34,508 nucleotides of DNA from Bacteroidaceae bacterium. GTDB lineage: Bacteria; Bacteroidota; Bacteroidia; Bacteroidales; Bacteroidaceae. A program made the position numbers and the translations under genes. The notes beneath the pieces were generated by a model, which saw only the letters and a list, made by a program, of their open reading frames with translations, was not told where the DNA came from and ran no database searches. Each line of letters begins with the position of its first letter. Position 1 is the stretch's first letter. Location of the stretch: assembly GCA_017617805.1 (NCBI GenBank), contig JAFZVN010000052.1:1-34508 (forward strand), in the 5' to 3' direction. This document shows positions 12,995 through 31,970 of the stretch, in pieces.

Positions 12995-13066
12995 GTGATA
13001 AATGAAAAATTTGCTACCGCAACTGTTGGATAACTCTTGCGGAAGCAAATTTTTCACTTTTCATTT
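12995..13066. terminator. Large imperfect palindrome between convergent genes
   Basis: The left arm, 12995-13022, and right arm, 13037-13066, can pair around a 14-nt loop. The inner stem holds AATTTGCTACCGCAA against TTGCGGAAGCAAATT, with one mismatch. The outer part is A/T-rich with a 7-nt rhythm. It lies just behind the lipoprotein gene and before the opposing manC, where a two-way terminator is expected. Because of the symmetry, both strands spell MKNLLPQ from an ATG, but these ORFs are not believed to be genes. Confidence 0.6.
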
Positions 13067-13085
13067 TTCACTTTTAACTTTACAC
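13051..13085. repeat. Heptad array 1 (TTTTCAC type, 5 units)
   Basis: Five consecutive 7-nt units of the form TTTTCAC, the last two more divergent. The array overlaps the manC stop codon (13080-13082) and the right arm of the palindrome. Confidence 0.75.
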
Positions 13086-14168
13086 GTATTCCTCTCCGAG
13101 GTTCAGTTGGGCATCGTTCACAAACTTGCGGATGTTCTTCTGGTCGCCCTTCTTGCAGATGACGAGGACGTTGCCCTCTTCCACCACCACGTAGTCGTCC
13201 AGACCCTGCACCACAGCAACGTGTCCATCGGGCAGTTTGATGATGCAGTCGTGACAGTCGTAGAGGAGCGACTTGGAGTCGATGACCACGTTGCCCATGT
13301 CGGACTTCGGCATCGCCTCATGCACAGCAGCCCAAGTACCAAGATCGGCCCATCCGAAATGGCTGAGCATCACATCCACATTGTCAGACTTCTCAAGCAC
13401 ACTCTGTTCAAGGCTCATGTTGGGGCACTTGGTGAAGAGTTCCAACAACAGGTCGGCCATATATGCGCCCGTTTGGTAAGCTTCCTTGACTCGCTGCACG
13501 ATGCCAGCAAACTCCTCGCTGGCTCCCTTGACAGCATTCAGAAATGCATCTGCACTCCATAGGAAAAGACCCGTATTCCACAAGAACTCACCACTCTCGT
13601 AGAAGATCTTGGCAAACTCATTGGCAGGCTTCTCCGTGAAACTCTGCACCTTATATATTTGCGACTCTGCGTCCACCAAGTCTGCCATCTGAATATATCC
13701 GTAGGAGACTTCTGGACGAGTAGGCTTGGCACCCATCGTCAGCAATGCATCGCTGCTCCCCACGAAATCAAGTCCTCGAAGCACATCCTGTTGGAAGGCT
13801 TCATAATCCGTGATATTCTGATCGGAGGGACTGACGATAAGCCTGCCCTCTGGACAACGGCGCTTCACTTCCAAAGCCGCCCATGTCACCGCAGGAACAG
13901 TGTTGCGCCGCATCGGTTCCATCAGCACATTCTCATATTTGATACCAGGAATCTGATCAATCACCAACTGACGATAGGACTCGTTGGTCACAATGATGAT
14001 GTTGTCGGCATCAATGCAAGCAGCAAACCGCTCATACGTCATCTGCAGAAACGATTTCCCTGTGCCCAGCACATCAATAAACTGTTTCGGCTTCTTCTCG
14101 CGACTCATGGGCCACAAACGGGAGCCTTGTCCGCCTGCAAGTATCACACAAAAATTTCTTTTGTCCAT
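13080..14168 (-). CDS. manC: Mannose-1-phosphate guanylyltransferase
   Basis: A 362-residue cytoplasmic nucleotidyltransferase that makes GDP-mannose from mannose-1-phosphate and GTP. The pyrophosphorylase signature FCVILAGGQGSRLWPMSREKKPKQF is at residues 6-30, split here by the G-rich loop GGQGSRLWP and the substrate-activating KKPKQF. SPSDQNI, near 113, contains the metal-binding Asp. TEKP at about 178-181 and the NTGLFLW motif near 198-204 are also present. The protein stops before the C-terminal phosphomannose isomerase domain found in type II enzymes. GDP-mannose could feed polysaccharide, fucose or glycoprotein synthesis; it lies 4 kb from the exopolysaccharide operon in its own transcript. 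Confidence 0.95.
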   Translation of the reverse strand: MDKRNFCVILAGGQGSRLWPMSREKKPKQFIDVLGTGKSFLQMTYERFAACIDADNIIIVTNESYRQLVIDQIPGIKYENVLMEPMRRNTVPAVTWAALEVKRRCPEGRLIVSPSDQNITDYEAFQQDVLRGLDFVGSSDALLTMGAKPTRPEVSYGYIQMADLVDAESQIYKVQSFTEKPANEFAKIFYESGEFLWNTGLFLWSADAFLNAVKGASEEFAGIVQRVKEAYQTGAYMADLLLELFTKCPNMSLEQSVLEKSDNVDVMLSHFGWADLGTWAAVHEAMPKSDMGNVVIDSKSLLYDCHDCIIKLPDGHVAVVQGLDDYVVVEEGNVLVICKKGDQKNIRKFVNDAQLNLGEEYV

Positions 14169-14224
14169 AAATTCACTTTATCGACTATGTCGGTATCACT
14201 GAGGTTAGTTTTCTTTTCACTTTG

Positions 14225-14256
14225 CGAATGTAGGACTAAAAACCTAACTGACCAAA
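14225..14256 (-). promoter_or_regulatory. Promoter of manC
   Basis: On the minus strand, TTTG (14256-14253), a 20-nt spacer, and TACATTCG (14232-14225), one base off the TAnnTTTG consensus. It gives a leader of about 50 nt before the ATG at 14168. Confidence 0.7.
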
Positions 14257-14315
14257 TTTTTTCGGAGAATAATTAAAAAAGTAACATAATTTAGGAGAAA
14301 ATCAGACAAATTTCG

Positions 14316-14344
14316 TACCTTTGGCTATGCAGAAAGTACTTTCT
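14316..14344 (+). promoter_or_regulatory. Distal -7 box followed by a 14-bp palindrome
   Basis: TACCTTTG at 14316-14323 matches the -7 consensus but has only a weak -33. AGAAAGTACTTTCT at 14331-14344 is a perfect palindrome sitting where transcription from this box would begin. It could be an operator for the ABC ATPase operon, with the stronger promoter at 14378-14408 downstream. Confidence 0.4.
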
Positions 14345-14377
14345 CTCGACAATAAAAGTGAAAAATTGCTTTTCCCC

Positions 14378-14408
14378 TTTGTATTGTGCTCGCTTAATCG
14401 TACCTTTG
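14378..14408 (+). promoter_or_regulatory. Main promoter of the ABC ATPase operon
   Basis: TTTG (14378-14381), 19-nt spacer, TACCTTTG (14401-14408), an exact consensus match. It lies only 8 bp before the ATG at 14417, so the transcript would be nearly leaderless. This decides the start codon: a longer reading frame from TTG at 14321 would run through the promoter. Confidence 0.8.
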
Positions 14409-14416
14409 CACTCATT

Positions 14417-15490
14417 ATGAGCATATCCATTGAATTGAAGAACCTGACAACAGGTTATAAAGTGAAAGGCGGTGAGAAAATCATCGCCAAGAATTTGAAC
14501 GCATCGCTGAACAGCAGCGAGATGATTTGTCTGCTTGGTCCTAACGGTGCCGGCAAATCGACTTTGCTTCGCACTTTGGCTGCTTTCCAACCTGCCTTGG
14601 GAGGAACGGTCGAGATACTGGGTCGCGACCTGAAGAAGTACACGAACAAGGAACTGGCAAGACTCATCAGTGTGGTGCTGACCGACAACTCCGACATCAA
14701 AAATATGACAGCCGAAGAGGTGGTTGCCATGGGGCGCAGTCCTTACACAGGCTTCTGGGGACGACTGAACGAAAAGGACAAGACAGTCATCAAGAAGTGT
14801 CTTGGATGGGTCGGCATCGAGGAGCTGGCCAAGCGGAAAATGCAGACCCTCTCCGATGGTGAGCGACAGAAGGTGATGATTGCCAAAGCCATTGCCCAAG
14901 AGACGCCCATCATCTTCCTCGACGAGCCCACGGCCTATCTCGACTATCCGAGCAAAATTGCCATGATGCTTCTGCTCCACCGTCTGGCCAAGGCGCTGAA
15001 GAAGACCATCTTCATGAGTACCCACGACTTGGAACATGCCTTGCAAGTGGCTGACCAAGTATGGCTGATTGACCCAGAGAAAGGGCTGACCACTGGCACT
15101 CCTGAAGACCTGAGCATTGACGGCAGTATCGAGACGTACTTCGCCAAGGAGGGTATGACGTATGACAGCGAATCATGTACCTTCTCCATCGAGCATGAGA
15201 CAGCACGCGACATTGTGGTGGAAGGTTCGGACTCACAGGAGTATCGTCTCTGCTGCAAAGCCCTCGTCCGCAACGGCATCAAGCCCGTCTCAAAAGCCGA
15301 AGGCACGCAAGCCAGCAGCGATGTGAAAATCCGCATCCCTGGCGATGGCTCCTACCGTCTCATCGAGCAGGGCAAGGAAAGCATCAAGGTGGAGAAAATC
15401 GGACATCTCGTCCAGATGATTGTGCCCGCCATCACCAAGTATCAAATCTCAGCCATCCGCGAGGCTGCCGAAATGAACCAGTATGAATAG
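14417..15490 (+). CDS. Metal-chelate/cobalamin-type ABC ATPase with C-terminal extension
   Basis: A 357-residue ATPase of the iron-siderophore/cobalamin importer class (FecE/BtuD-like). Walker A GPNGAGKST is at 41-49, the Q-loop region near 88-92, the signature LSDGE at 145-149, Walker B IIFLDEPT at 165-172 and the H-loop His at 203. VVAMGRSPYTGFWG is typical of the siderophore class. About 110 residues beyond the normal end (245-357) form an extra domain of unknown role, with mixed beta/alpha character and IRIPGDGSYRLIEQG. No permease or binding protein is visible here, so its partner lies elsewhere. It overlaps the next gene by 8 bp. The start is at ATG 14417, because the promoter sits directly upstream. 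Confidence 0.88.
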   Translation: MSISIELKNLTTGYKVKGGEKIIAKNLNASLNSSEMICLLGPNGAGKSTLLRTLAAFQPALGGTVEILGRDLKKYTNKELARLISVVLTDNSDIKNMTAEEVVAMGRSPYTGFWGRLNEKDKTVIKKCLGWVGIEELAKRKMQTLSDGERQKVMIAKAIAQETPIIFLDEPTAYLDYPSKIAMMLLLHRLAKALKKTIFMSTHDLEHALQVADQVWLIDPEKGLTTGTPEDLSIDGSIETYFAKEGMTYDSESCTFSIEHETARDIVVEGSDSQEYRLCCKALVRNGIKPVSKAEGTQASSDVKIRIPGDGSYRLIEQGKESIKVEKIGHLVQMIVPAITKYQISAIREAAEMNQYE

Positions 15491-16349
15491 ACTCTTTTCT
15501 TTTCTCTTTTCACTGCTCTTAGGCAGCGTGTCTCTTTCGGCTCAAACATCTGAAATGGAACAAGACATGTTCGAGACGATGCGGGAAGATGACAAAGCCG
15601 TCATCGTGGCAGTACACGAAGACGCCGTCAGCGGAATCGGCCAGCAAGGCATCGACCGTCTCACCCTACGGCTGCATGAGCTTTATCCCAACTACGACTT
15701 TCGCGAGGCTTGTACCAACCAAGGGCAGATGAGTCAAGCATCCGACCCCGACCAACTCTTCATTCAGCTGCAGAAGGATGGCTACACCCATGTGCTGGTG
15801 CAATCATCGAGCATCACGAACGACCTCGACATGCAGTACTTGCGCCATCTGGTGGAAGCGGCCAAAGGGAAGTTCAAGCAAATGCGATTAGGAGAACCTC
15901 TGCTGAGCAGTCTCACTGACTACCAAGAGGTGGCGAAAATGCTCATCAGCCATTTCAGCATGCCCAAACAAGTGAACGTGCTCGTATGCAATGGCTCCGA
16001 CGAGGAGAGCGACGCCACCTACACCTTGCTTGACTACATCCTGCGAGACCAAGGGCAGGATTGGTTCCTCTCCACCATCAATGGTCATCCCTCGCTCGCC
16101 CATCTAATCAAGCAACTGAAAAAGCAGAAGCTCAAGAAGGTGCATCTCGTCCCCTTCAATGCTGAAGCAAACAAGATGATAGGAGGAGAATGGATCAAGA
16201 TGTTGCAGCAAGCAGGATACAAGGTGACAGCCGAGCCTCAAACCTTAGTAGAACAAGAGGGTATCATCCATCTCTTCGAGCAACATATTCATCATGCAGA
16301 GCAGTTTCGTACATTGACCGCCAAAGAACAAAAACTTTTAGTGCATTAA
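15483..16349 (+). CDS. Exported CbiK-like chelatase-fold protein, likely inactive
   Basis: A 288-residue protein with a signal peptide (MNRLFSFLFSLLLGSVSLSAQ). The rest aligns along its length with anaerobic sirohydrochlorin cobaltochelatase CbiK: VLVQSSSITNDLDMQYL, LGEPLLSSLTDYQEV, NGSDEESDATYTLLDYIL, VHLVPFNAEANKMIGGEW, and the ending LFEQHIHHA. Compared with Salmonella CbiK as I recall it, the GHG that carries the first metal His (145) is CNG here. The segment with the second His (207, AGDHA) is shortened and has no His. The Glu at about 89 aligns with Asp. It may therefore bind a tetrapyrrole or metal chelate in the periplasm rather than insert metal. The gene overlaps the ABC ATPase by 8 bp, so they probably work together. 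Confidence 0.75.
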   Translation: MNRLFSFLFSLLLGSVSLSAQTSEMEQDMFETMREDDKAVIVAVHEDAVSGIGQQGIDRLTLRLHELYPNYDFREACTNQGQMSQASDPDQLFIQLQKDGYTHVLVQSSSITNDLDMQYLRHLVEAAKGKFKQMRLGEPLLSSLTDYQEVAKMLISHFSMPKQVNVLVCNGSDEESDATYTLLDYILRDQGQDWFLSTINGHPSLAHLIKQLKKQKLKKVHLVPFNAEANKMIGGEWIKMLQQAGYKVTAEPQTLVEQEGIIHLFEQHIHHAEQFRTLTAKEQKLLVH

Positions 16350-16376
16350 CCGAAGAACTTCGTTATTCTCCCCAAT

Positions 16377-18140
16377 ATGGCAAGCCCCTATCTCGAAATC
16401 AAAGGACTGACCAAACGCATCGGACATCGTGTGCTGTTTGAGGATATCTCGTTCACAGTGAATGAGCGTGAACATATTGGACTCATCGCCAAGAACGGAA
16501 CGGGCAAATCGACTCTCCTCAGCATCATCGCAGGCAAAGAAGGCGACGATGGCGGTACCATGATATTCCGCAACGATCTCAAGGTAGGCTATTTGGAACA
16601 GACCCCCACCATCGATGCCCACGAGATAGCAGGCAAAGACGAAGATTTCCAGCTACGCTACAAGCAGTACCTCACCTTGATGAAAATCACGGAGGAGGAA
16701 GCCAACCGACCTGCCGAGCAACTGAGCGGTGGACAGGTGAAGCGTATTGCCCTATCGAGAGTGCTGGCTGGGGAACCCGACCTGCTCATCCTCGACGAGC
16801 CGACCAACCACCTTGACCTTGAGATGATAGAGTGGCTTGAGAATACGCTGAGCCGTTCGACCATGGCAATTCTGATGGTAACCCACGACCGCTACTTCCT
16901 CGACCGCATCTGCTCGAGCATCATTGAGATGGACAATTCGCGCATCTATCCCTACAAGGGCAACTATTCCTACTATTTGGAGAAGCGTCAGGAGCGTATC
17001 GACAACATGAATGCGGAGATTGCTCGTGCAAACAATTTATATCGAACAGAACTGGAATGGATGCGCAGCACACCCTGTGCCCGCAGTTCGAAAGCCCGCT
17101 ACAGGATTGAGTCCTTCTACGAACTGGAGAAGCGTGCCAAACAGCGCATCGAAGAACGCAACGTGCGATTGGAGATGGGCGGCACCTATATCGGCAACAA
17201 GATTTTCGTGGCGGAGCATGTATGCAAGGCATTCGGTGACCGTGTCATTCTGAAGGATTTCAACTATAACTTTGCCCGTTACGAGAAGTTGGGCATCGTG
17301 GGCAATAACGGAACAGGCAAATCAACCTTTGTGAAGATGCTCCTCAGTCTGGAACCCCACGACAGCGGCACTATCGACATCGGCGAGACTGTCCGCTTTG
17401 GCTACTACTCTCAGCAGGGCATGACGTTCAAGGATGACCAGAAGGTGATTGATGTCGTGCGAGACATCGCCGAATACGTAGATATGGGCAATGGCGAGAA
17501 ACTCTCCGCCGGACAATTCCTGCAACACTTCCTCTTTTCGCCCGAGGAGCAGTACAGCTACATTTATAAATTAAGTGGTGGCGAGAAGCGGAGGCTCTAC
17601 CTCTGTACCGTGCTGATGAAAGCCCCCAACTTCCTCATCCTTGACGAGCCGACCAATGACCTTGACATCGTGACGCTGCAAATCCTCGAGGATTATCTGA
17701 AGAACTTCCGTGGATGCCTCATCATCGTCAGCCACGATCGCTACTTCATGGATCGGGTGGTTGACCACACGTTAGTCTTTCATGGCGATGGAAACATTCA
17801 GGACTTCCCTGGCAGTTATAGCCAGTACAGAGAGTGGAAAGAACAGAATGAGAAGGAGCAGGGGGCAAGGAACAGGGGGCAAGAGAAGGATGAGAAGAAG
17901 CCTGACGGTCGCAATCAAAACCGTGCCCGCCGACTCACTTTCAAGGAACGGCAGGAATTCAACCAACTGGAACAGGACATTGCCGCCCTCGAAGAAGAGA
18001 AGAAACACATCGAGGCTGCCCTCTGCGGAGGTACCACTTCGGTAGATGAAATCACTCAGATGAGCAAACGCCTCCCCATCCTCTCCGACGAACTGGAAGA
18101 AAAAGAAATGCGCTGGCTCGAACTTTCCGAATTTGTATAG
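16377..18140 (+). CDS. ABC-F family ATPase (Uup-like)
   Basis: A 587-residue soluble protein with two ABC domains in tandem and no membrane segments. Domain 1 has Walker A AKNGTGKST (38-46), LSGGQ (116-120) and LLILDEPTNHLDL (137-148). A basic helical linker covers about 200-265 (ELEWMRSTPCARSSKARYRIE). Domain 2 has Walker A NNGTGKST, LSGGE (399-403) and LILDEPTNDLD. A C-terminal coiled coil at about 520-587 is typical of Uup. ABC-F proteins act on ribosomes; Uup members are linked to translation quality and to DNA branch intermediates. A 7-nt periodic array at 17854-17888 codes for EQGARNRGQEK in the flexible link before the coiled coil. It lies 27 bp after the CbiK-like gene and just before engB. 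Confidence 0.92.
   Translation: MASPYLEIKGLTKRIGHRVLFEDISFTVNEREHIGLIAKNGTGKSTLLSIIAGKEGDDGGTMIFRNDLKVGYLEQTPTIDAHEIAGKDEDFQLRYKQYLTLMKITEEEANRPAEQLSGGQVKRIALSRVLAGEPDLLILDEPTNHLDLEMIEWLENTLSRSTMAILMVTHDRYFLDRICSSIIEMDNSRIYPYKGNYSYYLEKRQERIDNMNAEIARANNLYRTELEWMRSTPCARSSKARYRIESFYELEKRAKQRIEERNVRLEMGGTYIGNKIFVAEHVCKAFGDRVILKDFNYNFARYEKLGIVGNNGTGKSTFVKMLLSLEPHDSGTIDIGETVRFGYYSQQGMTFKDDQKVIDVVRDIAEYVDMGNGEKLSAGQFLQHFLFSPEEQYSYIYKLSGGEKRRLYLCTVLMKAPNFLILDEPTNDLDIVTLQILEDYLKNFRGCLIIVSHDRYFMDRVVDHTLVFHGDGNIQDFPGSYSQYREWKEQNEKEQGARNRGQEKDEKKPDGRNQNRARRLTFKERQEFNQLEQDIAALEEEKKHIEAALCGGTTSVDEITQMSKRLPILSDELEEKEMRWLELSEFV
17854..17888. repeat. Heptad array 2, inside the ABC-F gene (5 units)
   Basis: Five 7-nt units alternating AGGARCA and GGGGGCA, ending in a divergent unit. 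They are in frame and code about 11 residues in a flexible linker (near residues 493-504). Confidence 0.65.
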
Positions 18141-18144
18141 ACTT

Positions 18145-18994: not shown

Positions 18995-21001
18995 ATGTAT
19001 AATTTAGAAGAACTTAACCGCAAGGAGAAGACTGAACTTCTCAACATTGCAGCAGAACTGGGCATCAAGAATGCCGAAAAGATGGAGGATATTGACCTCA
19101 GACTCGCCATCATCGACGAACAGGCCACCAATTTCGCTTCCAATGCCGCATCAGCTGAGAAAACCACACGCAAACGTGCTCGCGTCAGCATCAAGAACGT
19201 GGATCGTGTCTATTCAGCCAATCAGGAAAAAATCAGAAAGATAGATAAAAATATGACCATTAAGAGGGACGAATCGATCTTTGCCGCCCTGTCTCCTGAG
19301 GAGAAAGCCATGCTTTCGTCAGAGGAGAAGGCTGAGCCAATTCAGGAAGCCGCTGCTCCAGCGCCTAAAAAACGTGGTCGCAAACCCAAGGCAAAAGAAG
19401 AGGCTCCAGCTGTTGAGGAAAAGAACGTAGAGTCCCCAGCCACAGAAGTTGCCACTGAGACTTCGACCGAAGCCGCTCCCAAAAAGCGTGGTCGCAAGCC
19501 TAAGGCAAAAGTCGAGGAGGCTATGCCTGAGGTCGAAGAGGTCAAAGAAGACACACAGGACAATGCTCAAGAGGAAGCCAACACAGAAGCCGAAGCCATT
19601 GTGCCAGAGGCAGCATTCGCTGTGGGCAATAGTGATTCCCTCCAGACAATCTACTCCAATGCCGGCAAGCCTTCATTACATGGTAATTCAGACTTCGTCA
19701 TCCTTGAAGACATTCCTGATGAGTCGCAATACTTCACGCCTGCTGTCAACATCCTCAATCGCTTCGAGGTGGAAAGTCATATCGCACAGAACAATAATGA
19801 AGCTCCCATCTACGAGGAATACAATGAGGCTGCTCCCATCGCCGCTTCACGTAAGGAGAAAGTCGTGAAAGAGAAGCCCTATGAGTTCGACAACATCATC
19901 CGCGTGAGCGGTGTCCTCGAGACCGTCGATAACTACGGATTCCTCCGCAGTAGCGACTACAACTACCTGCCCTCACCCGACGATGTCTATGTAAGCCTGC
20001 AACAGATCAAGCACTACGGACTCAAGACTGGCGACGTGGTCGATGGTTTCGTACGTCCTCCAAGGGAAGGCGAGCGCTTCTTCCCATTGGCCAGCGTCGA
20101 GAAAATCAATGGTTGCGAACCCGCCCGAGTGCGTGACCGCGTGGGGTTCGAATTCTTAACGCCTCTCTTCCCTGACGAGAAATTCAAACTTTGCAAAGGA
20201 CACGATGACAGCAAGTCATCACGTATCGTTGACCTCTTCTCGCCTATCGGTAAAGGACAGCGTGCCCTCATCGTGGCACAGCCCAAGACAGGTAAAACCC
20301 TGCTCATGAAGGACATTGCCAATTCCATTGCTGCCAACCATCCAGAGGCCTATCTTATGATGCTGCTCATCGATGAGCGTCCAGAGGAAGTGACTGACAT
20401 GGCCCGCACCGTCAATGCCGAGGTGATTGCCTCCACTTTCGATGCCCCAGCCGAGAACCACGTCAAGATTGCAGGCATCGTGCTCGAGAAAGCCAAACGA
20501 ATGGTTGAGTGCGGACACGACGTTGTCATCTTCCTTGACTCCATCACCCGTCTGGCACGTGCCTACAACACTGTATCACCAGCATCAGGCAAGGTGCTCT
20601 CAGGTGGTGTCGATGCCAATGCTCTCCACAAGCCCAAGCGCTTCTTCGGAGCTGCACGTAATATCGAAAACGGAGGTTCGCTCACCATCATCGCTACAGC
20701 CCTCATCGACACAGGCTCTAAGATGGATGAAGTCATCTTCGAGGAATTTAAGGGAACCGGTAACATGGAACTGCAACTTGACCGCAGCCTTGCCAACAAG
20801 CGCATCTTCCCTGCCGTCAACCTCACAGCTTCTTCTACTCGTCGAGATGACCTGCTGCAGGATCAGACCACGCTCAACCGCATGTGGGTGCTCCGCAACC
20901 ATATCGCCGACATGAACGTGATAGAGTCCATGGAATTCCTCTCCAAGCAGATGGATCGCACGAAAAACAACGAAGAATTCTTAATCAGCATGAACGGATG
21001 A
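18995..21001 (+). CDS. rho: Transcription termination factor Rho with large disordered insertion
   Basis: A 668-residue Rho, about 250 longer than E. coli Rho (419). The N-terminal Rho_N helix bundle is at 1-45. A low-complexity, acidic/basic, Ala/Pro/Glu-rich insertion runs from about 85 to 290 and contains two copies of [12 protein letters not shown] (123-134 and 161-172), resembling AT-hook cores. The RNA-binding cold-shock-like domain is at about 300-365. The ATPase has Walker A QPKTGKT (429-435), Walker [17 protein letters not shown] (510-525) and the Q-loop SGGVDANAL (536-544), all intact. Rho is the hexameric RNA helicase that ends untranslated transcription. In Bacteroides thetaiotaomicron the comparable insertion drives phase separation of Rho. 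The gene is monocistronic, with its own promoter. Confidence 0.97.
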
Positions 21002-21005
21002 TAAA

Positions 21006-21093
21006 GAATTGAATAATTGAAAAATTGAAGGATTGAAGTTTTGGCTAACGCGATGACCAACTTCAATCCTTCAATTTTTCAATCTTTCAATTC
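21006..21093. terminator. Octad palindrome between convergent rho and lipoprotein gene
   Basis: The left arm (21006-21043) holds four 8-nt units ending in ATTGAA. The right arm (21059-21093) holds four of the inverse form starting TTCAA. The arms are nearly complementary around a roughly 15-nt loop, giving a hairpin that could end transcription from both sides. It belongs to the octad repeat family. Confidence 0.65.
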
Positions 21094-21903: not shown

Positions 21904-22674
21904 TCATTCCGATTGTTGCTGTACGAATGCTTCTGCCTTAGCAATGGTATCGAGCTTGCCCACGTCGAGAAGCTGAAGCTGAGGGGCGAAGTGGCAACGG
22001 ATATCCACTTTATCACAGATAGAAAGATAGAAATCAATGATGGAGAACTTACCCTGCCAAGTATCCATGAGGGGAAGCAGAGAAGGATGGAAAACCTGAA
22101 TGCCAGAGAAAGCGAACTTCTTTAGTTGATAGTTGACAGTTGACAGTTGACAGTTGGATTCCAGTGCCTTGATCTCGGGAAAGGGGGAGCGAATTTCTCC
22201 TGTAGCAATATTCGTCCATCCGACAAGACGATTTGCATCGTCAAAAAGGAGATAGCGTTGGGTGTCGCGTTGGGAAACAAGAAGGGTTGTAGTACCCGTT
22301 GCGACACCTTCGTTGTAAAGACCGAGGAGATCAGCATTGGAGAGAATATCCACATTATGGACAAGAATAGGATCGGCATTGGAGAAGAGACGGGCAGCCT
22401 TCTTTAGTCCTCCACCTGTCTCGAGGAGTTGGTCTGTTTCGTCGCTGAAACGAATATCAATGCCGAAGCGGTCATTGGCCTCGATAAAGTCAATAATCTG
22501 CTGGGCGAAGTGATGGACATTGATGACCACCTCACTTACACCAATACTTTTCAACTTCTCGATCAGAATCTGCACGAGAGGTTTTCCATTGATGGGCACC
22601 ATCGCCTTGGGCATGGTGTCAGTGAGGGGTTTGAGGCGGGTGCCGAGACCGGCAGCAAATATGAGAGCGTTCAA
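21904..22674 (-). CDS. MurU-like sugar-1-phosphate nucleotidyltransferase
   Basis: A 256-residue NTP_transferase. The G-rich loop AAGLGTRLKPLT is at 7-18, MPKAMVPINGKPL at 21-33, LLETGGGLKKA near 83-93, and the metal-binding Asp in VHNVDILS near 110-117. Together with the kinase just upstream it resembles the AmgK/MurU pair, in which the kinase makes MurNAc-1-phosphate (or GlcNAc-1-phosphate) and MurU adds uridylate, feeding UDP-MurNAc to cell-wall synthesis. A 7-nt periodic array (22124-22157) adds about 12 residues (SNCQLSTVNYQL, about 172-183) in frame. The gene lies 26 bp after the kinase gene, with part of another array between. The true substrate is inferred only. Confidence 0.85.
   Translation of the reverse strand: MNALIFAAGLGTRLKPLTDTMPKAMVPINGKPLVQILIEKLKSIGVSEVVINVHHFAQQIIDFIEANDRFGIDIRFSDETDQLLETGGGLKKAARLFSNADPILVHNVDILSNADLLGLYNEGVATGTTTLLVSQRDTQRYLLFDDANRLVGWTNIATGEIRSPFPEIKALESNCQLSTVNYQLKKFAFSGIQVFHPSLLPLMDTWQGKFSIIDFYLSICDKVDIRCHFAPQLQLLDVGKLDTIAKAEAFVQQQSE
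22124..22157. repeat. Heptad array 3, inside the MurU-like gene (5 units)
   Basis: One AGTTGAT unit, three AGTTGAC units and a partial AGTTGG. It is in frame on the minus strand, where it reads NCQLSTV-type peptide. Confidence 0.85.
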
Positions 22675-22677
22675 GGG

Positions 22678-22712
22678 AGTTGAGAGTTAAAAGTTAAAAG
22701 TTAAGAGTTTGA
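22678..22712. repeat. Heptad array 4 across the kinase-RapZ stop codon (5 units)
   Basis: One AGTTGAG, two AGTTAAA, then AGTTAAG and a divergent AGTTTGA. The TAA stop of the kinase-RapZ gene (22703-22701) lies within the array, so the repeat supplies the stop. Confidence 0.8.
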
Positions 22713-24311
22713 GGGTATGAATTGAGTGATTCCCTGTTCACGATGGCAGATGTGGACTTCCACACCAAACTTCTCGTGGATGTGCTCTGCCACATGCTGA
22801 GCACTATAGACTGAACGATGACGGCCACCTGTGCAACCAAAACTGATTTGCAAATGAGTAAAACCGCGCTCGATGAAACGTGACACATGGAAATCGACCA
22901 ATTTATAGACACTATCAAGGAAAGTGAGGATTTCTCCATCAGCCTCAAGAAAATCGATAACGGGCTGGTCAAGTCCCGTGAGGGGCTTATACTCGTCGTA
23001 TCGACCAGGGTTGTGGGTGCTTCGACAATCAAACACGTAGCCACCACCGTTGCCAGATTCGTCGGCTGGGATGCCTTTCTTGAAGGAGAAGGAGAAAACA
23101 GAGACGGAAAGAGAAGACCCTCTCTGTCCTACGGACATCTCCCCCATAATGGGGAGAGAGCCATGCGGGGTGTAGGTTTTATCATTTTGAAGATAGGCTG
23201 CCACTTTGGCTTGCTTGGCTGCTTCCTCCGCCCTACTCTTTTCTTCCTCAGAGTTGAGGGCAATTAGGGAAAGCGCCACCTCTTTGAGATTGGGGTATGG
23301 ATCGCAAGTGCCAAGAGCTATTTCCTGTTGCAAGTTATGGATGGCGAGAGGAATGCTGTCGATGAAATAGGTTTTCTTCTCCCATAGACCACGATAGCCG
23401 TATGCACCTAACACCTGCAAAATGCGGAAAAGAACGAAGAGGTGGAGACGGGGAAGGAAGAGTGAAGAGTTAAAGGTTGAGAGGTGAGAAGTGAGGGCAT
23501 CGAGATACTCGTCGATAAGAAGGTTGCGTACCTCATCGGAGAACTTGGCAGAGGACTGCCAAAGGAAAGAGGCGACATCGTAGTAGATAGGGCCTCGGCG
23601 ACCACCCTGAAAGTCGATAAAATAAGGCTTTCCATCCTTCAACATGATGTTACGCGATTGAAAATCACGATAGAGAAAAGTCGGTTCGTCATCGACGAGG
23701 AGATCATCAGCCAGCTGCTCAAAATCCTGCTGCAAACGGAACTCATTGAACTCCACACCTTTCAGTTTGAGGAAACAATACTTGAAATAGTTGAGGTCAA
23801 ACATCACACTCGTCCTGTCCATCGATTGTTGAGGAAAGCAATGAGAGAAAAAAGTTGACAGTTGACAGTTGACAGTTGACAGTTGGGTAAGAGGTAGGAG
23901 CTGGAAACGGGGGAGTTCACGGATGGTAGCTTTGAGGGCTGCTAAAGCTTCGGCATCGAAAGAACCATCCGCCTGACGATGCTGTGACATGAAAGCATGC
24001 AAGGACACATCGCCACAATCTTCCTGCAAATAGACCATCCTATCATCGGAAACCGCCAACAAGGAAGGAACAGGCAAACCACCCTCTCTGAAACGTTTGG
24101 CCAAGTCGATAAACGCCTCGTTCTCCTCTTGATTGGTGCCAATGACTGCGATGAGAGAGTTGAGGGGCAAGGAGCAAGGGGCAAGAGTTGAGAGTTCCTC
24201 GCCACCACACACACGGAAATAACGACGATTGCTGCCAGCACCAGCCAGAGGAACGATGTTCTGAGGCTCTGTGCCTGTCAAACTTTTATATAATTGAATG
24301 ATTCTTTCCAT
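22701..24311 (-). CDS. AmgK-like sugar kinase fused to RapZ C-terminal domain
   Basis: A 536-residue two-domain protein. Residues about 1-345 are an aminoglycoside-phosphotransferase-fold kinase: GAGSNRRYFRV nucleotide loop (24-34), FLYRDFQSRNIML catalytic loop (212-224) with Asp and Asn, and FIDFQGG metal motif (231-237). Residues about 400-530 match the C-terminal domain of RapZ/YvcJ: VFDCRSTHNPG, PLTGLDQPV, and FGCTGGRHRSV (491-501). In E. coli this domain senses glucosamine-6-phosphate. The NTPase half of RapZ is absent. Next to a MurU-like gene this suggests amino-sugar recycling with built-in sensing. Three heptad arrays add short peptides (ELSTLAPCSLPLNSL, QLSTVNCQLST, TSHLSTFNSSLF), and a double-hairpin element codes for residues about 384-398. 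The frame stays open and catalytic motifs are intact. Confidence 0.85.
   Translation of the reverse strand: MERIIQLYKSLTGTEPQNIVPLAGAGSNRRYFRVCGGEELSTLAPCSLPLNSLIAVIGTNQEENEAFIDLAKRFREGGLPVPSLLAVSDDRMVYLQEDCGDVSLHAFMSQHRQADGSFDAEALAALKATIRELPRFQLLPLTQLSTVNCQLSTFFSHCFPQQSMDRTSVMFDLNYFKYCFLKLKGVEFNEFRLQQDFEQLADDLLVDDEPTFLYRDFQSRNIMLKDGKPYFIDFQGGRRGPIYYDVASFLWQSSAKFSDEVRNLLIDEYLDALTSHLSTFNSSLFLPRLHLFVLFRILQVLGAYGYRGLWEKKTYFIDSIPLAIHNLQQEIALGTCDPYPNLKEVALSLIALNSEEEKSRAEEAAKQAKVAAYLQNDKTYTPHGSLPIMGEMSVGQRGSSLSVSVFSFSFKKGIPADESGNGGGYVFDCRSTHNPGRYDEYKPLTGLDQPVIDFLEADGEILTFLDSVYKLVDFHVSRFIERGFTHLQISFGCTGGRHRSVYSAQHVAEHIHEKFGVEVHICHREQGITQFIPSNS
23119..23160. repeat. Double-hairpin (REP-like) element inside the kinase-RapZ gene
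   Basis: TGTCC/GGACA (23125-23137) with a 3-nt loop, followed directly by TCTCCCC/GGGGAGA (23138-23157) with a 6-nt loop, and CTCTC/GAGAG outside. It codes for LPIMGEMSVGQRGS in the linker between kinase and RapZ domains. It looks like a small palindromic repeat that inserted in frame. Confidence 0.6.
23461..23495. repeat. Heptad array 5, inside the kinase-RapZ gene (5 units)
   Basis: Five 7-nt units of types AGTGAAG, AGTTAAA and AGGTGAG. Read on the minus strand they give TSHLSTFNSSL near residues 272-284. Confidence 0.7.
23853..23887. repeat. Heptad array 6, inside the kinase-RapZ gene (5 units)
   Basis: Four perfect AGTTGAC units and AGTTGGG. It codes for QLSTVNCQLST near residues 143-153, the same cyclic peptide as array 3. 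Confidence 0.85.
24158..24199. repeat. Heptad array 7, inside the kinase-RapZ gene (6 units)
   Basis: Six units: AGTTGAG at both sides of three GRGCAAG units, then a divergent AGTTCCT. It codes for ELSTLAPCSLPLNSL near residues 39-52, just before a core strand of the kinase N-lobe. Confidence 0.7.
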
Positions 24312-24323
24312 AAACTTCTATTC

Positions 24324-24403
24324 TTCAATCCTTCAATTCTTCAATCCTTCAATTCTTCAATCCTTCAATTCTTCAATCCTTCAATTCTTCAACTCTTCAA
24401 TCC
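24324..24403. repeat. Octad array, 10 units
   Basis: Ten 8-nt units, alternating TTCAATCC and TTCAATTC, with one TTCAACTC. It fills the gap between the kinase-RapZ start (24311) and the permease stop (24399-24397), and its last unit overlaps that stop. There are no spacers, so it is not a CRISPR array. Confidence 0.92.
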
Positions 24404-25605
24404 TTTCGTTTCCAAATGCTCATCACCTTACCATAAACAGCAATGATATTGAAAATGCTCACAATGACAAGCAATGCCAAACCAACACCTAACGCCTGCC
24501 AGATACCAGGGGCTTCGAAATCTGGGAAGAAATTCTCGAACATGTTGAGATAAGCACCACGTACCACCAGCATAATCACCACTGCCAAAAGAAGCACCAA
24601 CACATTCAGCCCCACCGTCAAAGCCTGATATGGAAAAGAAACCTTGGCAGGTGAATATCCAATGAGCAAGAGGTTCTCCAACTTCGTGCTGTTCTTCTGC
24701 ACAAGGAGGAATACACTCAACATCAAGATATAGAACGAAAGTATGCTGATGACCACACCCACCACCATCACAATGCTGACGATGACACGCAAGATGAAGG
24801 TGGTCTTCGAGGCATCCAATTTCTCCTCGTCCGTTTCATAATCATGGTCTTGCAAATAACTTGTGATGCGTTCATCCGTCGGATTGCTCACTTCCAGAAT
24901 GAGGCGTGTTGGTTCCTTCACCACGGCCTGATTGGCAAAGCGTCCATTCGCCCACTGCATGAATGCCTCAGGCACAAGAATGGTGTTCAGACGCGATGAG
25001 AAGCCTACAATTCGTCCCACAAACTCACCACTGTTCTCACCTCGACCTATTTGGATGTTCAACTTCATGGCTCCCAAGATGCCCTCACTGAGTTTGGGCA
25101 GTCCCTTGCCTTGGGCATAGCCAAAGTTATAGAGGTCGAGATAATTTTTCGGCAGGATGATGGGGATCTCATTGTCACCCTCTTGATATTTCCAAGCATC
25201 GCTCTTCACATCGACAAACTCATCAGGCACACTCTCAAAAAACATCTCTGTGGAGAAACTCACAAAACCCTCCACATCGAATCTTGCCCGCACATTAAAG
25301 GAACTTGGAGTGAAAGCACCTATATGTTCTGCGAACCCAGCCTCTTTGATATCATCCACATCTTCCTGACTGAAAGTGCTCCCTGCCCCCGTCAATCCTG
25401 ACAACGCCCCAATCTTCTTGTTCACAATCATATAGTCAGCCTTCATGAAGCTGTCTTCCTGATCGATGGCCTGATAGTCATTGTAAAACTGAACGCCCAA
25501 CAAGATGATGACCACACCCACGAGGTTGGCAAAGAAGAATCCCACAAACTGCGGAATGCTGATGTGTTGACGTAATAGTTTCCAAACCAATTTCATCTTC
25601 GTCAC
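24397..25605 (-). CDS. ABC transporter permease, FtsX/MacB-like
   Basis: A 402-residue membrane protein. One helix near residues 20-40 is followed by a periplasmic domain of about 230 residues, then three helices near 273-297, 323-345 and 365-390. This is the four-helix FtsX/MacB topology. The stretch KLENLLLIGYSPAKVSFPY between helices 2 and 3 matches the cytoplasmic coupling segment of such permeases. It lies 3 bp after the ABC ATPase gene, so the two should form one complex. MacB-type systems move power across the envelope rather than transport small molecules, often for lipoproteins or export; the cargo is unknown. The upstream lipoprotein could be a partner. A Met at codon 4 is an alternative start. 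Confidence 0.85.
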   Translation of the reverse strand: MTKMKLVWKLLRQHISIPQFVGFFFANLVGVVIILLGVQFYNDYQAIDQEDSFMKADYMIVNKKIGALSGLTGAGSTFSQEDVDDIKEAGFAEHIGAFTPSSFNVRARFDVEGFVSFSTEMFFESVPDEFVDVKSDAWKYQEGDNEIPIILPKNYLDLYNFGYAQGKGLPKLSEGILGAMKLNIQIGRGENSGEFVGRIVGFSSRLNTILVPEAFMQWANGRFANQAVVKEPTRLILEVSNPTDERITSYLQDHDYETDEEKLDASKTTFILRVIVSIVMVVGVVISILSFYILMLSVFLLVQKNSTKLENLLLIGYSPAKVSFPYQALTVGLNVLVLLLAVVIMLVVRGAYLNMFENFFPDFEAPGIWQALGVGLALLVIVSIFNIIAVYGKVMSIWKRKD

Positions 25606-26253: not shown

Positions 26254-26259
26254 GTATGA

Positions 26260-27735: not shown

Positions 27736-27739
27736 GTTT

Positions 27740-28483: not shown

Positions 28484-28486
28484 TTT

Positions 28487-28539
28487 TTCAATCCTTCAAT
28501 TAACTACGTTGAGCTAAAGGTTCTTCAATTTTTCAACTC
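28487..28539. repeat. Two short octad clusters around the rsmE/tsaD junction
   Basis: TTCAATCC and TTCAATTA at 28487-28502, then TTCAATTT and TTCAACTC at 28524-28539. The second pair codes for the C-terminal VEKLKN of TsaD, so here an octad pair forms the end of a conserved protein. Confidence 0.6.
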
Positions 28540-29539
28540 TCGCGTAGGCAGGCAAGTCGATGGACGCAAAATCTTTGTCAAGATACTTGAAATAACCCGT
28601 GATGCCAATCATGGCAGCATTGTCAGTCGTATAGGAAAACTTAGGAATGAATATCTTCCAATGATATCGTCTCGCATGGTCACGGAAGGCATTGCGAAGT
28701 CCATTGTTGGCACTCACACCACCAGCCACAGCCACCTGCTTGATGCCTGTATCTTTCACTGCCTTACGCAGCTTCTTCATCAGAATATCCACAATGGTCT
28801 TCTCCAACGAGGCAGCTAAGTCTTCCTTATGATGCTCAATGAAGTCAGGGTCTTCCTGCATCCAATCCCTCAGATGATAGAGGAACGAGGTCTTCAACCC
28901 TGAAAAACTGTAATCGTAACCAGCTATATCAGGTTTCGAAAATTCAAACGCATCAGGATTCCCTTGACGCGCCAGTTTGTCGATGATCGGACCACCAGGA
29001 TAACCCAATCCCATCACCTTCGAGCATTTGTCTATCGCCTCACCAGCCGCATCGTCAATGGTCTGACCCAGAATCTCCATATCCTTATACGAATTCACCT
29101 TCACAATCTGGCTATTGCCACCACTGACAAGCAGACAAAGATAAGGAAACGTGGGTTGATCGTGGTCTTCTTCACTCTCACGGATGAAATGCGCCAGCAC
29201 ATGACCCTGCAAATGGTTCACGTCTATCATCGGAATACCCAGACTTCTGGCAAATCCCTTCGCAAAGCTCACACCCACCAAAAGACTTCCCATCAAGCCT
29301 GGTCCTCTGGTGAAAGCCACCGCATTCAGATCTTCTTTCGTGATGCCTGCCCGCTTGATAGCAGCATCCACCACAGGTACAATGTTCTGCTGATGCGCAC
29401 GGCTGGCCAACTCTGGCACCACCCCACCATATTCCTCATGCACAGCCTGAGAGGCCGTCACATTACTCAGCAAGATGCCATCCTTCAGCACGGCCGCACT
29501 TGTATCATCGCACGAACTTTCTATCGCTAATATATACAT
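28514..29539 (-). CDS. tsaD: tRNA N6-threonylcarbamoyladenosine synthase subunit TsaD
   Basis: A 341-residue ASKHA-fold enzyme that transfers the threonylcarbamoyl group to A37 of ANN-decoding tRNAs. MYILAIESSCDDTSAAV opens the protein, GPGLMGSLLVG is near 79-89, the metal-binding HLQGH is near 108-112, SGGNSQIV at about 134-141, and DDAAGEAIDK near 157-166. The length is normal. It lies 43 bp after map and 30 bp before rsmE, in a run of housekeeping genes on the minus strand. Confidence 0.97.
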   Translation of the reverse strand: MYILAIESSCDDTSAAVLKDGILLSNVTASQAVHEEYGGVVPELASRAHQQNIVPVVDAAIKRAGITKEDLNAVAFTRGPGLMGSLLVGVSFAKGFARSLGIPMIDVNHLQGHVLAHFIRESEEDHDQPTFPYLCLLVSGGNSQIVKVNSYKDMEILGQTIDDAAGEAIDKCSKVMGLGYPGGPIIDKLARQGNPDAFEFSKPDIAGYDYSFSGLKTSFLYHLRDWMQEDPDFIEHHKEDLAASLEKTIVDILMKKLRKAVKDTGIKQVAVAGGVSANNGLRNAFRDHARRYHWKIFIPKFSYTTDNAAMIGITGYFKYLDKDFASIDLPAYARVEKLKNL

Positions 29540-29553
29540 GGTTTCAATTCTAA

Positions 29554-29588
29554 ACTGTCAATTGTCAACTGTCAATTGTCAATTAATA
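29554..29588. repeat. Heptad array 8 at the map 3' end (5 units)
   Basis: ACTGTCA and ATTGTCA alternate twice, then a divergent ATTAATA that contains the map stop codon (29585-29583). It fills most of the map/tsaD gap. Confidence 0.85.
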
Positions 29589-30446
29589 CGTTAAAGTCTC
29601 CAATCCCTCCTCTGTCATCACATAGGTATGTTCCCATTGGGCAGAGTCGCTGTAGTCGTCCGTCACCACCGTCCAATCATCCTCACTATCCACAAACACC
29701 TGCCAACCGCCAGCGTTGATCATCGGCTCAATGGTGAACACCATGCCAGGAACCAACAGCATGCCAGTTCCTTTCTTTCCATAATGTTCCATGTCTGGGT
29801 CTTCGTGGAAGGCATTGCCCACGCCATGACCACATAAATCTCGAACGACCGTGCAACCATTGCGATGAGCATGCTTCGTGATGGCAGCCGCCGAATCACC
29901 CACAAACGTATAAGGTTTGCAAGCCTCGGCCCCAATCTCCATACACTCTTTAGCTACCTGCACCAACCGTTCTCGTTCAGGTGTTGTCTTGCCGATGATG
30001 AACATGCGGCTCGCATCAGCAAAATAACCATCCAGAATCGTCGTGCAATCCACATTGATGATGTCACCCTCCTCCAGAATGTCTTCCTCGCTGGGGATGC
30101 CATGACACACCACTTCGTTGATGCTGGTGCAACAACTCTTGGGGAAACCTTCATAATTGAGCGGCGCAGGAATGCCACCATGCTGTGTGGTGAAATCATA
30201 CACCAACTTGTCAATCTCCAGTGTGCTCATACCCTCACGAATCTTTTCTTGCACCAGGTCGAGCACACCCGTATTCAGCACACCCGCTCTACGGATGCCA
30301 TCTATTTGTTCAGGCGTTTTGATGAGCTCACGCTTAGGCACCAGATGTCCCTTATTCTGAAAGTACAGAATACGCTTGTCCATCTCTGTCAGCGGCTGAC
30401 CACTCTTCACATGCCAGTTTCTTGGATTTTTCTTCAACAGTCCCAT
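29583..30446 (-). CDS. map: Methionine aminopeptidase, type I
   Basis: A 287-residue enzyme that removes the initiator methionine. The five metal ligands are visible: Asp in INVDCT, Asp in YFADASRM, His in GHGVGNAFHEDP, Glu in FTIEPM and Glu in QWEHTYV. The substrate-binding His is in VVCHGIP. About 40 extra residues at the N-terminus (MGLLKKNPRNWHVKSGQPLT) precede the catalytic core, which begins near LIKTPEQIDGIRRAG; there is no Cys-rich zinc motif in this extension. It is the first gene of the minus-strand series running down to murU. Confidence 0.97.
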   Translation of the reverse strand: MGLLKKNPRNWHVKSGQPLTEMDKRILYFQNKGHLVPKRELIKTPEQIDGIRRAGVLNTGVLDLVQEKIREGMSTLEIDKLVYDFTTQHGGIPAPLNYEGFPKSCCTSINEVVCHGIPSEEDILEEGDIINVDCTTILDGYFADASRMFIIGKTTPERERLVQVAKECMEIGAEACKPYTFVGDSAAAITKHAHRNGCTVVRDLCGHGVGNAFHEDPDMEHYGKKGTGMLLVPGMVFTIEPMINAGGWQVFVDSEDDWTVVTDDYSDSAQWEHTYVMTEEGLETLTY

Positions 30447-30474
30447 TGTCTTCTTAAAAACTCATTTTTCACTG

Positions 30475-30482
30475 CAAAGTTA
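30475..30482 (-). promoter_or_regulatory. -7 box of map
   Basis: Reads TAACTTTG on the minus strand, 28 bp before the ATG at 30446. No clear -33 TTTG is seen at the expected distance. Confidence 0.55.
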
Positions 30483-30592
30483 CCACTTTTTCATTAGGAA
30501 AGAGGAATGAGAAAGAAGGATTTAATACTTTTTCACTGAAAAAACGCACGGAACCACAAAAAAATCCCCAATCCTAATTCCTAAATCTTTAC

Positions 30593-30600
30593 TACTTTTG
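30593..30600 (+). promoter_or_regulatory. -7 box of the small lipoprotein gene
   Basis: TACTTTTG, an exact match to TAnnTTTG, 30 bp before the ATG at 30631. The -33 element is not clear. Confidence 0.6.
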
Positions 30601-30630
30601 CAGCCAGAAATACCTAAACAAACAAGACTG

Positions 30631-31221
30631 ATGAAAACATTGACCATTACCGCCATCGCTGTCCTCGCGCTGATGATGGCTGGATGTAAAGAAGAGAAAA
30701 AAGAACCTGTCCAGGAGCGTGTCATCGAAACCACCGATCCCAAGACAGGTATCACCACCTTGCGCAGTTACACCATTGATGATACCATCACCATCAATGG
30801 CAAACTCTATAACTACTCGTGCAAATTCGAACCCGTTGACACGATGCCCGTGCTCATCAACTCTCAAGGATTGGAATACCGCGAGAGCCGCGTCAGCATC
30901 AACATCAAACAAGGGGACAACCAAGTGTTCAGCAAGACTTACTACAAAAAAGACTTCCGCGAATGGGTACCAGCCGACTTCCTCAAGACCTCCACGATGG
31001 TGGGTGTGAACTACAACTACATGAAGCGTGACACAGACCGTTCTGCCCTCTACTTCATCATTACTGTAGGTGACCCCGACGAGACTTCCGACAACATGGC
31101 CATCTCCCTCGAACTCAAAGTGGCACCTGATGGCAGTCACACCATCAAGAGGGCTGAAAACCTGGAAACAGAACCTCTTCGTCCAGGGCTCAACATCGAC
31201 CCCAGCGAGGATGCTGTGTAA
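30631..31221 (+). CDS. Small lipoprotein of unknown function
   Basis: A 196-residue lipoprotein with signal peptide and lipobox MMAGCK (C19). The mature part starts with a charged linker [10 protein letters not shown], then a single beta-rich domain ([19 protein letters not shown]). I think of the DUF4738-type lipoproteins of Bacteroidetes, but this is a weak recollection. The ATG at 30631 is chosen because it starts the signal peptide and lies 30 bp after a good -7 box; a TTG in frame at 30598 overlaps that box. It is 13 bp before trmD, so the two are probably cotranscribed. Confidence 0.75.
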
Positions 31222-31234
31222 GTTTACTGAGAAT

Positions 31235-31933
31235 ATGCGTATCGACATCATCACGGTTCTGCCTGAGTTGATAGAACCGTTCACCCAAGAGAGTATTCTC
31301 GGCAGGGCTCAGAAAAAAGGGCTCGCAGAGATTCATGTACATAACCTTCGAGACTATACGACGGACAAGCATCGGCGTGTGGATGATTACCCCTTCGGTG
31401 GGGCGGCTGGCATGCTCATCCAATGCCAACCGCTCGATGCTTGCATCTCGGCGCTGAAGGCAGAGCGCAACTACGACGAGATCATCTTCACAGCTCCTGA
31501 TGGTGAGAAGTTCGACCAGCCCATGGCGAACGAACTGTCGCTGAAGGAGAACATCATGATCATCTGCGGCCACTACAAGGGCATCGATTACCGCATCCGC
31601 GAACATCTCATCACCCGCGAGGTCAGCATCGGTGACTACGTGCTGACAGGCGGTGAATTGGCAGCAGCGGTAATGGCTGACTCCATCGTGCGAGTCATTC
31701 CTGGTGTCATTGGCGATGTGGAGAGTGCCCTCTCCGATTCCTTCCAAGACAATCTCTTGGAACCTCCAGTCTATACGCGTCCTGCTGAATATCACCCTGT
31801 CAGCAATCCTAACGAAACTTGGCCTGTGCCAGAGATTCTTCTCTCAGGACACGAGGCCAAGATTAAGGAATGGGAATATGAACAGGCGCTGGCACGCACA
31901 AAAGCGTTGCGACCGGATTTATTGGAAGAGTAA
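31235..31933 (+). CDS. trmD: tRNA (guanine-37-N1)-methyltransferase
   Basis: A 232-residue SPOUT enzyme that methylates G37 next to the anticodon, which prevents frameshifting. The protein starts [16 protein letters not shown], followed by [27 protein letters not shown] and the knot motif [14 protein letters not shown], then [16 protein letters not shown], all characteristic. The ATG at 31235 is chosen over longer frames that overlap the lipoprotein gene. Usually trmD sits with rpsP, rimM and rplS; here it is separate from them, which is common in Bacteroidetes. Confidence 0.97.
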
Positions 31934-31935
31934 AT

Positions 31936-31970
31936 TTTTCACTTTTAGTTTTTCACTTTTACCTTTTTAT
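31936..31970. repeat. Heptad array 9 between trmD and the Na/Pi cotransporter (5 units)
   Basis: Five units: TTTTCAC twice, TTTTAGT, TTTTACC and TTTTTAT. The last holds the stop codon of the cotransporter gene (31969-31967). The array is the whole gap between the convergent genes. Confidence 0.8.

Follow-up and report, generated by a model that had tools for sequence, protein, structure and literature searches.

The contig JAFZVN010000052.1 of a Bacteroidaceae bacterium (assembly GCA_017617805.1), taken over its full 34,508 nucleotides (nt) and hereafter called the window, carries nine short tandem arrays of 7-nt units, and similar arrays recur across the host genome and those of its congeners. 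With a probability of roughly two in three, these arrays were born by slippage, have been copied and homogenised within the genome and are tolerated in spacers and loops. With equal confidence, they are taken to represent heptanucleotide simple-sequence repeats in their Bacteroidales form, working like the short tandemly repeated repetitive (STRR) kind of cyanobacteria.

Under such an origin, a seed of 7–8 nt would be duplicated by replication slippage, and short arrays may be seeded or overwritten via template switching onto other arrays in the same genome. Homogenisation would hold the units alike across the genome, and selection may retain arrays where harm is small. The arrays lie in spacers between genes and, as in-frame peptide inserts, in variable loops. 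A first-pass annotation of the window had offered slippage, template-independent synthesis or a protein that reads a 7-bp rhythm as explanations. Slippage is favoured by the finding of no array, a short array or a long array in one and the same spacer of related species, and by array ends that merge with the local stop- or start-codon sequence.

Host Genome and Detection of Arrays

Judged by its TrmD protein, which is 96–97% identical to that of Bacteroidales RUG11335, Bacteroidaceae RUI029 and Prevotellaceae RUG242 (RUG in genome names denotes rumen genomes) and whose match coordinates coincide with those of the same-genus genomes G045, G041 and G003, the host is a member of the Bacteroidales genus containing Prevotellaceae RUG242. 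Its assembly comprises 2.145 Mb in 92 contigs and is 66% complete; the window is contig 4. The window and 20 further stretches make up a sample of 434.5 kb, and an extended set covers 749.7 kb of the 2,145-kb genome. The genus was compared across 45 species genomes, labelled G0xx. Arrays were detected as scored lag segments at a threshold of 12, with laxer thresholds of 8 and 9 for length distributions. Order-3 Markov sequences served as controls, and the reading frames around arrays were picked by length.

All nine arrays of the first-pass annotation were recovered by this independent scan. Seven appear at lag 7 (13049, 22123, 22677, 23457, 23853, 24163 and 29544), of which 23457 and 24163 sit at the threshold with a score of 12; the other two, 17853 and 31935, were recovered at lag 14 only, as two units alternate there. 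Tandem Repeats Finder listed eight of the nine, the array noted at 23461 being absent from its list. The strict 7-nt period claimed for the window was too strong a statement, since 8-nt arrays, unlisted earlier, are also present at 21004–21038, 21061–21092 and 24315–24405. The absence of arrays from the first 12.9 kb, to which attention had also been drawn, is no surprise: at the density of the 434.5-kb sample, which holds 75 arrays, about 2.2 would be expected there, and the Poisson chance of finding none is about 0.11.

Excess over Chance and Length of the Arrays

At a score of at least 12, the 434.5 kb hold 50 segments at lag 7 and the Markov control holds 0. Lag 8 yielded 17 segments versus 0 in one Markov sequence, and a second control gave 1 segment at lag 7 and 0 at lag 8. 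For the other lags, the counts were 0, 0, 1 and 0 (lags 5, 10, 11 and 13) and 7, 5 and 9 (lags 6, 9 and 12). At lag 7 the host sample has 21 exact runs of at least 12, and at lag 8 it has 11, where 0 are expected. By this excess length over chance (50 versus 0 lag-7 segments), the arrays are heptanucleotide long simple sequence repeats, a class of tandem 5–11 nt units that run longer than chance would give in their genome. Plain autocorrelation, a test that had been suggested for the whole genome, shows no excess at lag 7 over the window (0.2528, z 0.13) because the arrays occupy a small part of the sequence, but long runs are in excess, with three exact lag-7 runs of at least 10 against 0.03 expected. 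The signal therefore resides in local runs.

The assembly is fragmented (92 contigs, 66% complete), which might point to an artefact of chance, composition or assembly. Such an explanation is vanishingly improbable. It is ruled out by the Markov controls, which give only 0–1 segments; like arrays occur in many independent assemblies and in cyanobacterial records, and several species have orthologous arrays in common.

A peak of array length near five units had been expected. It proved to be real, lying at about 30–35 nt with a drop beyond 35 nt, and was seen again in a second host sample. At a score of 8, the 107 segments include 13, 14, 14 and 8 of up to 17, 18–20, 21–23 and 24–26 nt, followed by 9, 21, 11 and 3 of 27–29, 30–32, 33–35 and 36–38 nt. 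Markov replicates at this score gave 10 segments each, mostly short, and the short segments beneath the peak are to some extent chance. In the second sample (315 kb, score 9, 65 segments), the last four classes hold 12, 20, 6 and 2. The arrays of G044 peak at 30–33 nt with a longer tail, and those of the cyanobacterium Microcoleus cluster near 24–25 and 31–34 nt with a long tail.

Units and Placement

The unit was at first thought to change freely from array to array. Some variety exists, and in-phase unit switches were seen in some arrays (e.g., at 24163 in the window and at 19420 in stretch L026), but most units belong to one degenerate family, and the free change is mostly an effect of the view taken. 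In 81 of 95 host arrays in the 749.7 kb, the consensus differs from AGTTGAC or AGTGAAA by at most two substitutions, and in 62 of these by at most one; the figure for random spacer 7-mers at up to two substitutions is 37%. In a register that places AG first, the commonest units are AGTGAAA, AGTTGAC, AGTTAAA, AGGAGCA, AGTTTAG and AATGAAA. An exact unit is common to 125 of 946 array pairs, against a mean of 2.4 pairs and a maximum of 10 for random spacer 7-mers; with the AAAAGTG class excluded, 26 pairs share a unit against a null mean of 1.0 and a maximum of 10. Template-independent synthesis is not supported, because unit sharing among arrays far exceeds chance.

Reading frames contain 24 of the 75 arrays in 434.5 kb, and 51 lie outside. 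Several of the latter occupy their spacer almost fully, with few bases left to the stop and the start. Arrays within the two genes examined encode peptides such as STVNCQL repeats, and the arrays thus account for odd peptides of the (STVNCQL)n type in proteins.

The arrays could also be bound or regulatory elements whose heptamers are read by a protein or an RNA-binding factor. The length peak near 30–35 nt in the host and in G044 would fit, as would the uneven variability within host arrays (in the AGTTGAC register, base 4 is the least variable, at 0.02, and base 7 the most, at 0.19) and the strand preference in co-directional spacers, where purine and coding strand coincide in 23 of 32. This origin is nevertheless distinctly improbable, in view of arrays inside genes, in spacers of every orientation and at both 7- and 8-nt periods, and of the many orthologous spacers that have no array. 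The earlier proposal of a protein reading a 7-bp rhythm is likewise not supported, because 8-nt arrays turn up in the same contexts, reading frames contain 24 of 75 arrays and many relatives have no array at the same site.

Gain, Loss and Change between Species

The comparison of orthologous loci, proposed earlier as a check, shows that presence and unit differ between related species; by contrast, the array at 22123 is kept in four species. Among 29 congener loci of the APH-RapZ fusion gene (22701–24311 in the window), the same loops hold different arrays or none, depending on the species; one loop holds CAACTGT-, CAACTCT- or TGCCCCT-type arrays, or none.

The spacer equivalent to 24315–24405 is only 3–6 nt long in several congeners. 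Of the 24 congener loci shown, inspection by eye found clear arrays of three kinds in 4 (about three octamers in G012 and 7-nt arrays in three others) and no clear array in 20; AGTTGAC-like pieces were seen by eye in G032. The 8-nt arrays of G012 (about 3 units) and of the window (11 units) both begin from the gene-end sequence AAGGATTGA, and the 7-nt kinds finish in the start codon. GTTTACN occurs twice in G045 and three times in G005, terminating in GTTTATG, which includes the start codon, and CAATATA occurs twice in G025, terminating in CAATATG.

Copy number thus differs at this site (two units in G045, three in G005), but at 22123, compared in 30 sequences, the length is equal in the host, G036, G041 and G044, and near-perfect units are kept in all four despite diverged flanks. 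The reading frame at 22123 permits only three-unit steps and may therefore account for the stable length. At the trmD junction (30 loci, some of which have not kept the neighbour gene), a 7-nt array was seen by eye only in the host.

Hairpin Elements

Hairpin arms make up a quarter to a third of the arrays, and some of these hairpins have conserved cores. The 123 arrays of the 749.7 kb divide into 86 lone ones, 18 with nothing but an inverted partner, 17 that adjoin a core termed core A and 2 that adjoin another, core B. The threshold for an inverted partner was set by hand, and the flanks of other arrays pass it about 4 times in 123; some of the 18 bare hairpins may therefore be chance.

Core A (GCTACCGC..GCGGTAGC) belongs to a palindromic element, and the array noted at 13051 is one tail of a copy. 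A covariance model located core A in 25 of the 45 genus genomes; the host alone gave 46 two-strand matches, which amount to about 23 places. Of 121 genomes drawn from the family, 7 matched, six of them of the host genus and one, weakly, of another genus. The 749.7 kb of the host contain 15 copies; of the 14 having both neighbours, 10 lie between convergent genes, versus 56 of 315 gaps. An intrinsic terminator consists of a stable stem with a T run behind it, at the 3′ end of a gene. A T run is present on both strands of core A, and the element at 13002–13085 folds with −29.3 kcal/mol (z −7.6). Core-A hairpins are probably two-way transcription terminators, a putative role read from the sequence. 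At 20 fetched loci, one per genome from 20 genomes, the element is present in 20 of 20, with repeat-like tails in most, judged by eye, and less regular ones in L251, L252, L253, L259 and L260. The inner-loop consensus of core A, GTCAACAGTTGAC (alignment A1), includes AGTTGAC, a common array unit.

The kind of hairpin changes between related species. After the gene at 13080–14168, core A with the same neighbour is found only in the host, and G033 has core A with a different neighbour. In G029, G012, G051, G044, G009 and G010, the arms at this junction are of 8-nt or 7-nt units and accompany core B or a similar sequence, and G049 has a bare AGTGAAG hairpin. Other congeners show short spacers or, in several cases judged by eye, ordinary terminator-like hairpins. 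Downstream of the G003 nucleotidyltransferase gene that matches 13080–14168 (L357), the hairpin arms look like an array with a 9-nt unit (CGAATTNNN), which may be a third period class.

Core B (GGCTAACGCGATGC; extended form GGCTAACGCGATGC-N6-CCGCATGG) was found at 57 places spread over 16 of the 45 genus genomes, with 0 occurrences for the reversed control. The host has no exact copy; the near-copy of the window is GGCTAACGCGATGA, at 21004–21092 with 8-nt arms, and it folds with −40.9 kcal/mol (z −10.0). Thirty of the 57 places were examined by eye: tandem 7–8 nt arms were found in most, not in L393, L395, L399 and L407 among others, and 9 of the 30 lie between convergent genes. A C-rich/G-rich palindrome like CCCCCCAACCCCCAAAGGGGGAG, directly followed by the core-B-like GGCTAACGCGATG, was noticed in the host at L016 2678 and 10148, L022 16411, L291 11070 and 13816, and L294 602. 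A palindromic repeat like GGTGTGACTCACACC is present in two to three copies directly after trmD in G029, G012, G051 and G026 (L262 and L264; also L275 and L281). Rfam at its gathering thresholds gave no match in the window.

The two arms of a hairpin might be copied from one another by snap-back synthesis, each templated on its partner. Own arms of core B do match better than shuffled partners at the 30 loci (0 of 20,000 shuffles reach the observed value). Within species, however, the effect is weak (17 elements from species with at least two, orthologues dropped; 1,924 of 20,000 reach), and own arms of core A are no closer than those of other copies (12 copies; 16,115 of 20,000 reach). Because the core-B matching mostly vanishes in the within-species control, the arm unit is largely species-typical and not copy-typical, and hairpin-templated copying is very improbable.

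Repetitive extragenic palindromic (REP) sequences, their bacterial interspersed mosaic elements (BIME) and the palindromes associated with REP-associated tyrosine transposases (RAYT) are dispersed intergenic palindromes. The arrays could accordingly be arms or leftover half-elements of palindromes moved by a RAYT or another transposase. The spread of core A (25 of 45 genomes, about 23 host places) and of core B (16 of 45, reversed control 0) would suit a mobile element, as would the differing hairpins after one gene in related species. The host also has a protein with a weak match to the REP-associated tyrosine transposase model NF047646 (41.6 bits, under the 80-bit cut-off), and RAYT-like proteins are found in 11 of 11 genomes with at least 14 core-A matches versus 27 of 34 others (p = 0.17). 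Mobilisation is still unlikely as the source of the arrays. No core and no inverted partner accompany 86 of the 123 arrays, the RAYT-like gene is present in 21 of 25 genomes with core A and in 17 of 20 without it (Fisher p = 1), and the neighbourhood of the RAYT-like gene is free of core-A pairs at the six loci read (one of two close host copies and five congeners). No contig of IMG/VR, a collection of viral contigs, matched the exact pattern of core A or core B. The elements resemble REP/BIME as dispersed intergenic palindromes; they differ in that their arms are tandem 7–8 nt arrays and that no link to a RAYT gene was found. REP elements with RAYT were rejected as a classification on the six loci and the lack of association over 45 genomes. 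The host protein in question (351 aa, L210 1237–2292, G000:C52) has relatives in 38 of the 45 genus genomes and a second close copy in the host.

It is conceivable, though rather unlikely, that the genus has at least two new dispersed hairpin families (cores A and B) whose arms are tandem 7–8 nt arrays in the species-typical unit, with lone arrays as partial products of one active process that writes or overwrites arrays of about 33 nt genome-wide from a shared unit pool.

Several points weigh against slippage followed by copying and homogenisation. Slippage and template switching are putative mechanisms, deduced from a comparison between species. Ready-made insertion by microhomology would likewise give ends that merge with the flank. 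Free slippage would not predict the 28–35 nt peak and the drop above 35 nt, the equal length at 22123 in four species shows no slippage there, though only three-unit steps are open to a reading frame, and slippage alone is insufficient for the spread of lag-7 segments per 100 kb in G009, G003, G044 and G002 (1, 10, 16 and 8).

Relation to Known Repeats

STRR sequences are the short tandemly repeated repetitive heptanucleotide sequences of filamentous cyanobacteria. The host arrays share their degenerate 7-nt units and their many short dispersed arrays. They work like STRR sequences and are not classed as such, as the phylum of the host is that of Bacteroidales by TrmD and not cyanobacteria; the 8-nt class is also commoner in the host.

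A 20-base AGTTGAC pattern was scanned over named genomes, with titles sorted by hand. It gave at least 113 stretches, of which one genome may give several; among the matches listed, 92 were from cyanobacteria, 16 from Bacteroidota and 5 from others. A test set of 21 genomes comprised 13 of the host genus, of which 7 held the pattern, and 8 from other families, of which none did; the reversed pattern is uninformative as a control here, since the array reads alike backwards. Lag-7 segments number 25 in an 85-kb sample of Microcoleus and 26 in a 98-kb sample of Tychonema. AGTTGAC is the top unit of the Microcoleus genome sampled (present in 41 of 113 arrays at score 12; arrays of the first sample have a median of 33 nt) and not a top unit of Tychonema; the sharing of this unit with cyanobacteria is partly selection, because both were chosen for holding AGTTGAC arrays. 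Core A was not found in 85 kb of Microcoleus or 98 kb of Tychonema, and the core-B pattern had no match in 384 kb and 98 kb, respectively.

Clustered regularly interspaced short palindromic repeats (CRISPR) form arrays in which longer repeats alternate with unique spacers and which are accompanied by cas genes. A CRISPR array was rejected for the host, whose units are 7–8 nt without spacers; cas genes were not searched for.

The survey of Mrazek 2007, as cited in two papers (PMC4679880, PMC4692102), is reported to have found heptanucleotides to be the commonest category of long simple sequence repeats in most genomes, with polymerase slippage suggested as the cause and about 7 nt as a possible contact length of the polymerase. 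The host arrays share the over-represented 7-nt units and differ by one degenerate consensus for several units and by common 8-nt arrays. MacGregor 2015 described direct repeats of TAACTGA, which occur in Beggiatoaceae, in cyanobacteria and in five Bacteroidetes, and proposed that they are read by a protein or RNA-binding factor upstream of Beggiatoaceae start codons (PMC4679880). The likeness to the host arrays consists of heptamer arrays, patchy over the same phyla and at times in frames at tolerated places. The TAACTGA system is there described as one fixed unit, mostly just upstream of start codons in the best-studied genome, with related heptamers rarely repeated, whereas the host repeats related heptamers. 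TAACTGA is not among the 12–14 commonest host units. Rehm 2015 reported GGGAATC-type heptamer repeats in Xanthomonas and Nostoc (PMC4692102). These are mostly intergenic heptamers whose length varies among relatives, with paired repeats in Xanthomonas, and they are G-rich quadruplex formers, a type to which the common host units do not belong.

A literature search, which covered few subscription journals, found no description of the arrays or cores in Prevotella-like bacteria. The kind is already known; the form in this genus, the common hairpin cores, the 8-nt class and the length peak have not been described as far as searched. Heptamer repeats in general raise the questions of why the unit has seven letters, why certain units are used and why AGTTGAC occurs both in this genus and in Microcoleus. 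Across the 45 species genomes, arrays appear, disappear and change unit at sites that can be aligned, also in conserved genes, and models of array birth are therefore directly testable. The hairpin cores add a marked, countable element family.

Features of the Window

Table 1. Arrays and hairpin elements located in the window, in order of position.
Feature	Position	Strand	Description
Core-A hairpin element	13002..13085	.	GCTACCGC .. GCGGAAGC, one mismatch; AGTGAAA-type heptamer tails; between convergent genes
7-nt array AGTTAAA AGTGAAA AATGAAA AGTGAAA	13049..13085	-	Array noted at 13051; right tail of core-A element
7/14-nt array AAGGAGC AGGGGGC AAGGAAC AGGGGGC	17853..17883	+	In frame within ABC-transporter-type (ABC-F-like) gene
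Core-B hairpin element	21004..21092	.	GGCTAACGCGATGA core; both arms 8-nt arrays of AATTGAAG type; between convergent reading frames
7-nt array (AGTTGAC)n	22123..22156	+	Within nucleotidyltransferase gene 21904-22674(-); encodes NCQLSTVNYQL
7-nt array AGTTGAG AGTTAAA AGTTAAA AGTTAAG	22677..22709	+	Fills spacer of two minus-strand genes
Weak 7-nt array	23457..23495	+	Within APH-RapZ fusion gene 22701-24311(-); loop with other arrays in some congeners
Perfect 7-nt array (AGTTGAC)4.7	23853..23885	+	Within APH-RapZ fusion gene 22701-24311(-)
Unit-switching 7-nt array, AGGGGCA/AGGAGCA to AGAGTTG in phase	24163..24196	+	Within APH-RapZ fusion gene
8-nt array, 11.4 units, AATTGAAG/GATTGAAG	24315..24405	-	Spacer upstream of APH-RapZ gene
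7-nt array AATTGAC/AGTTGAC	29544..29584	-	Fills spacer between peptidase M24 and TsaD genes
7/14-nt array AGTGAAA AACTAAA AGTGAAA	31935..31967	-	Fills spacer of the convergent gene pair trmD and Na/Pi cotransporter

The gene at 22701–24311 joins an APH-type kinase domain to a RapZ C-terminal domain, and array-coded loops are found in it in several congeners.

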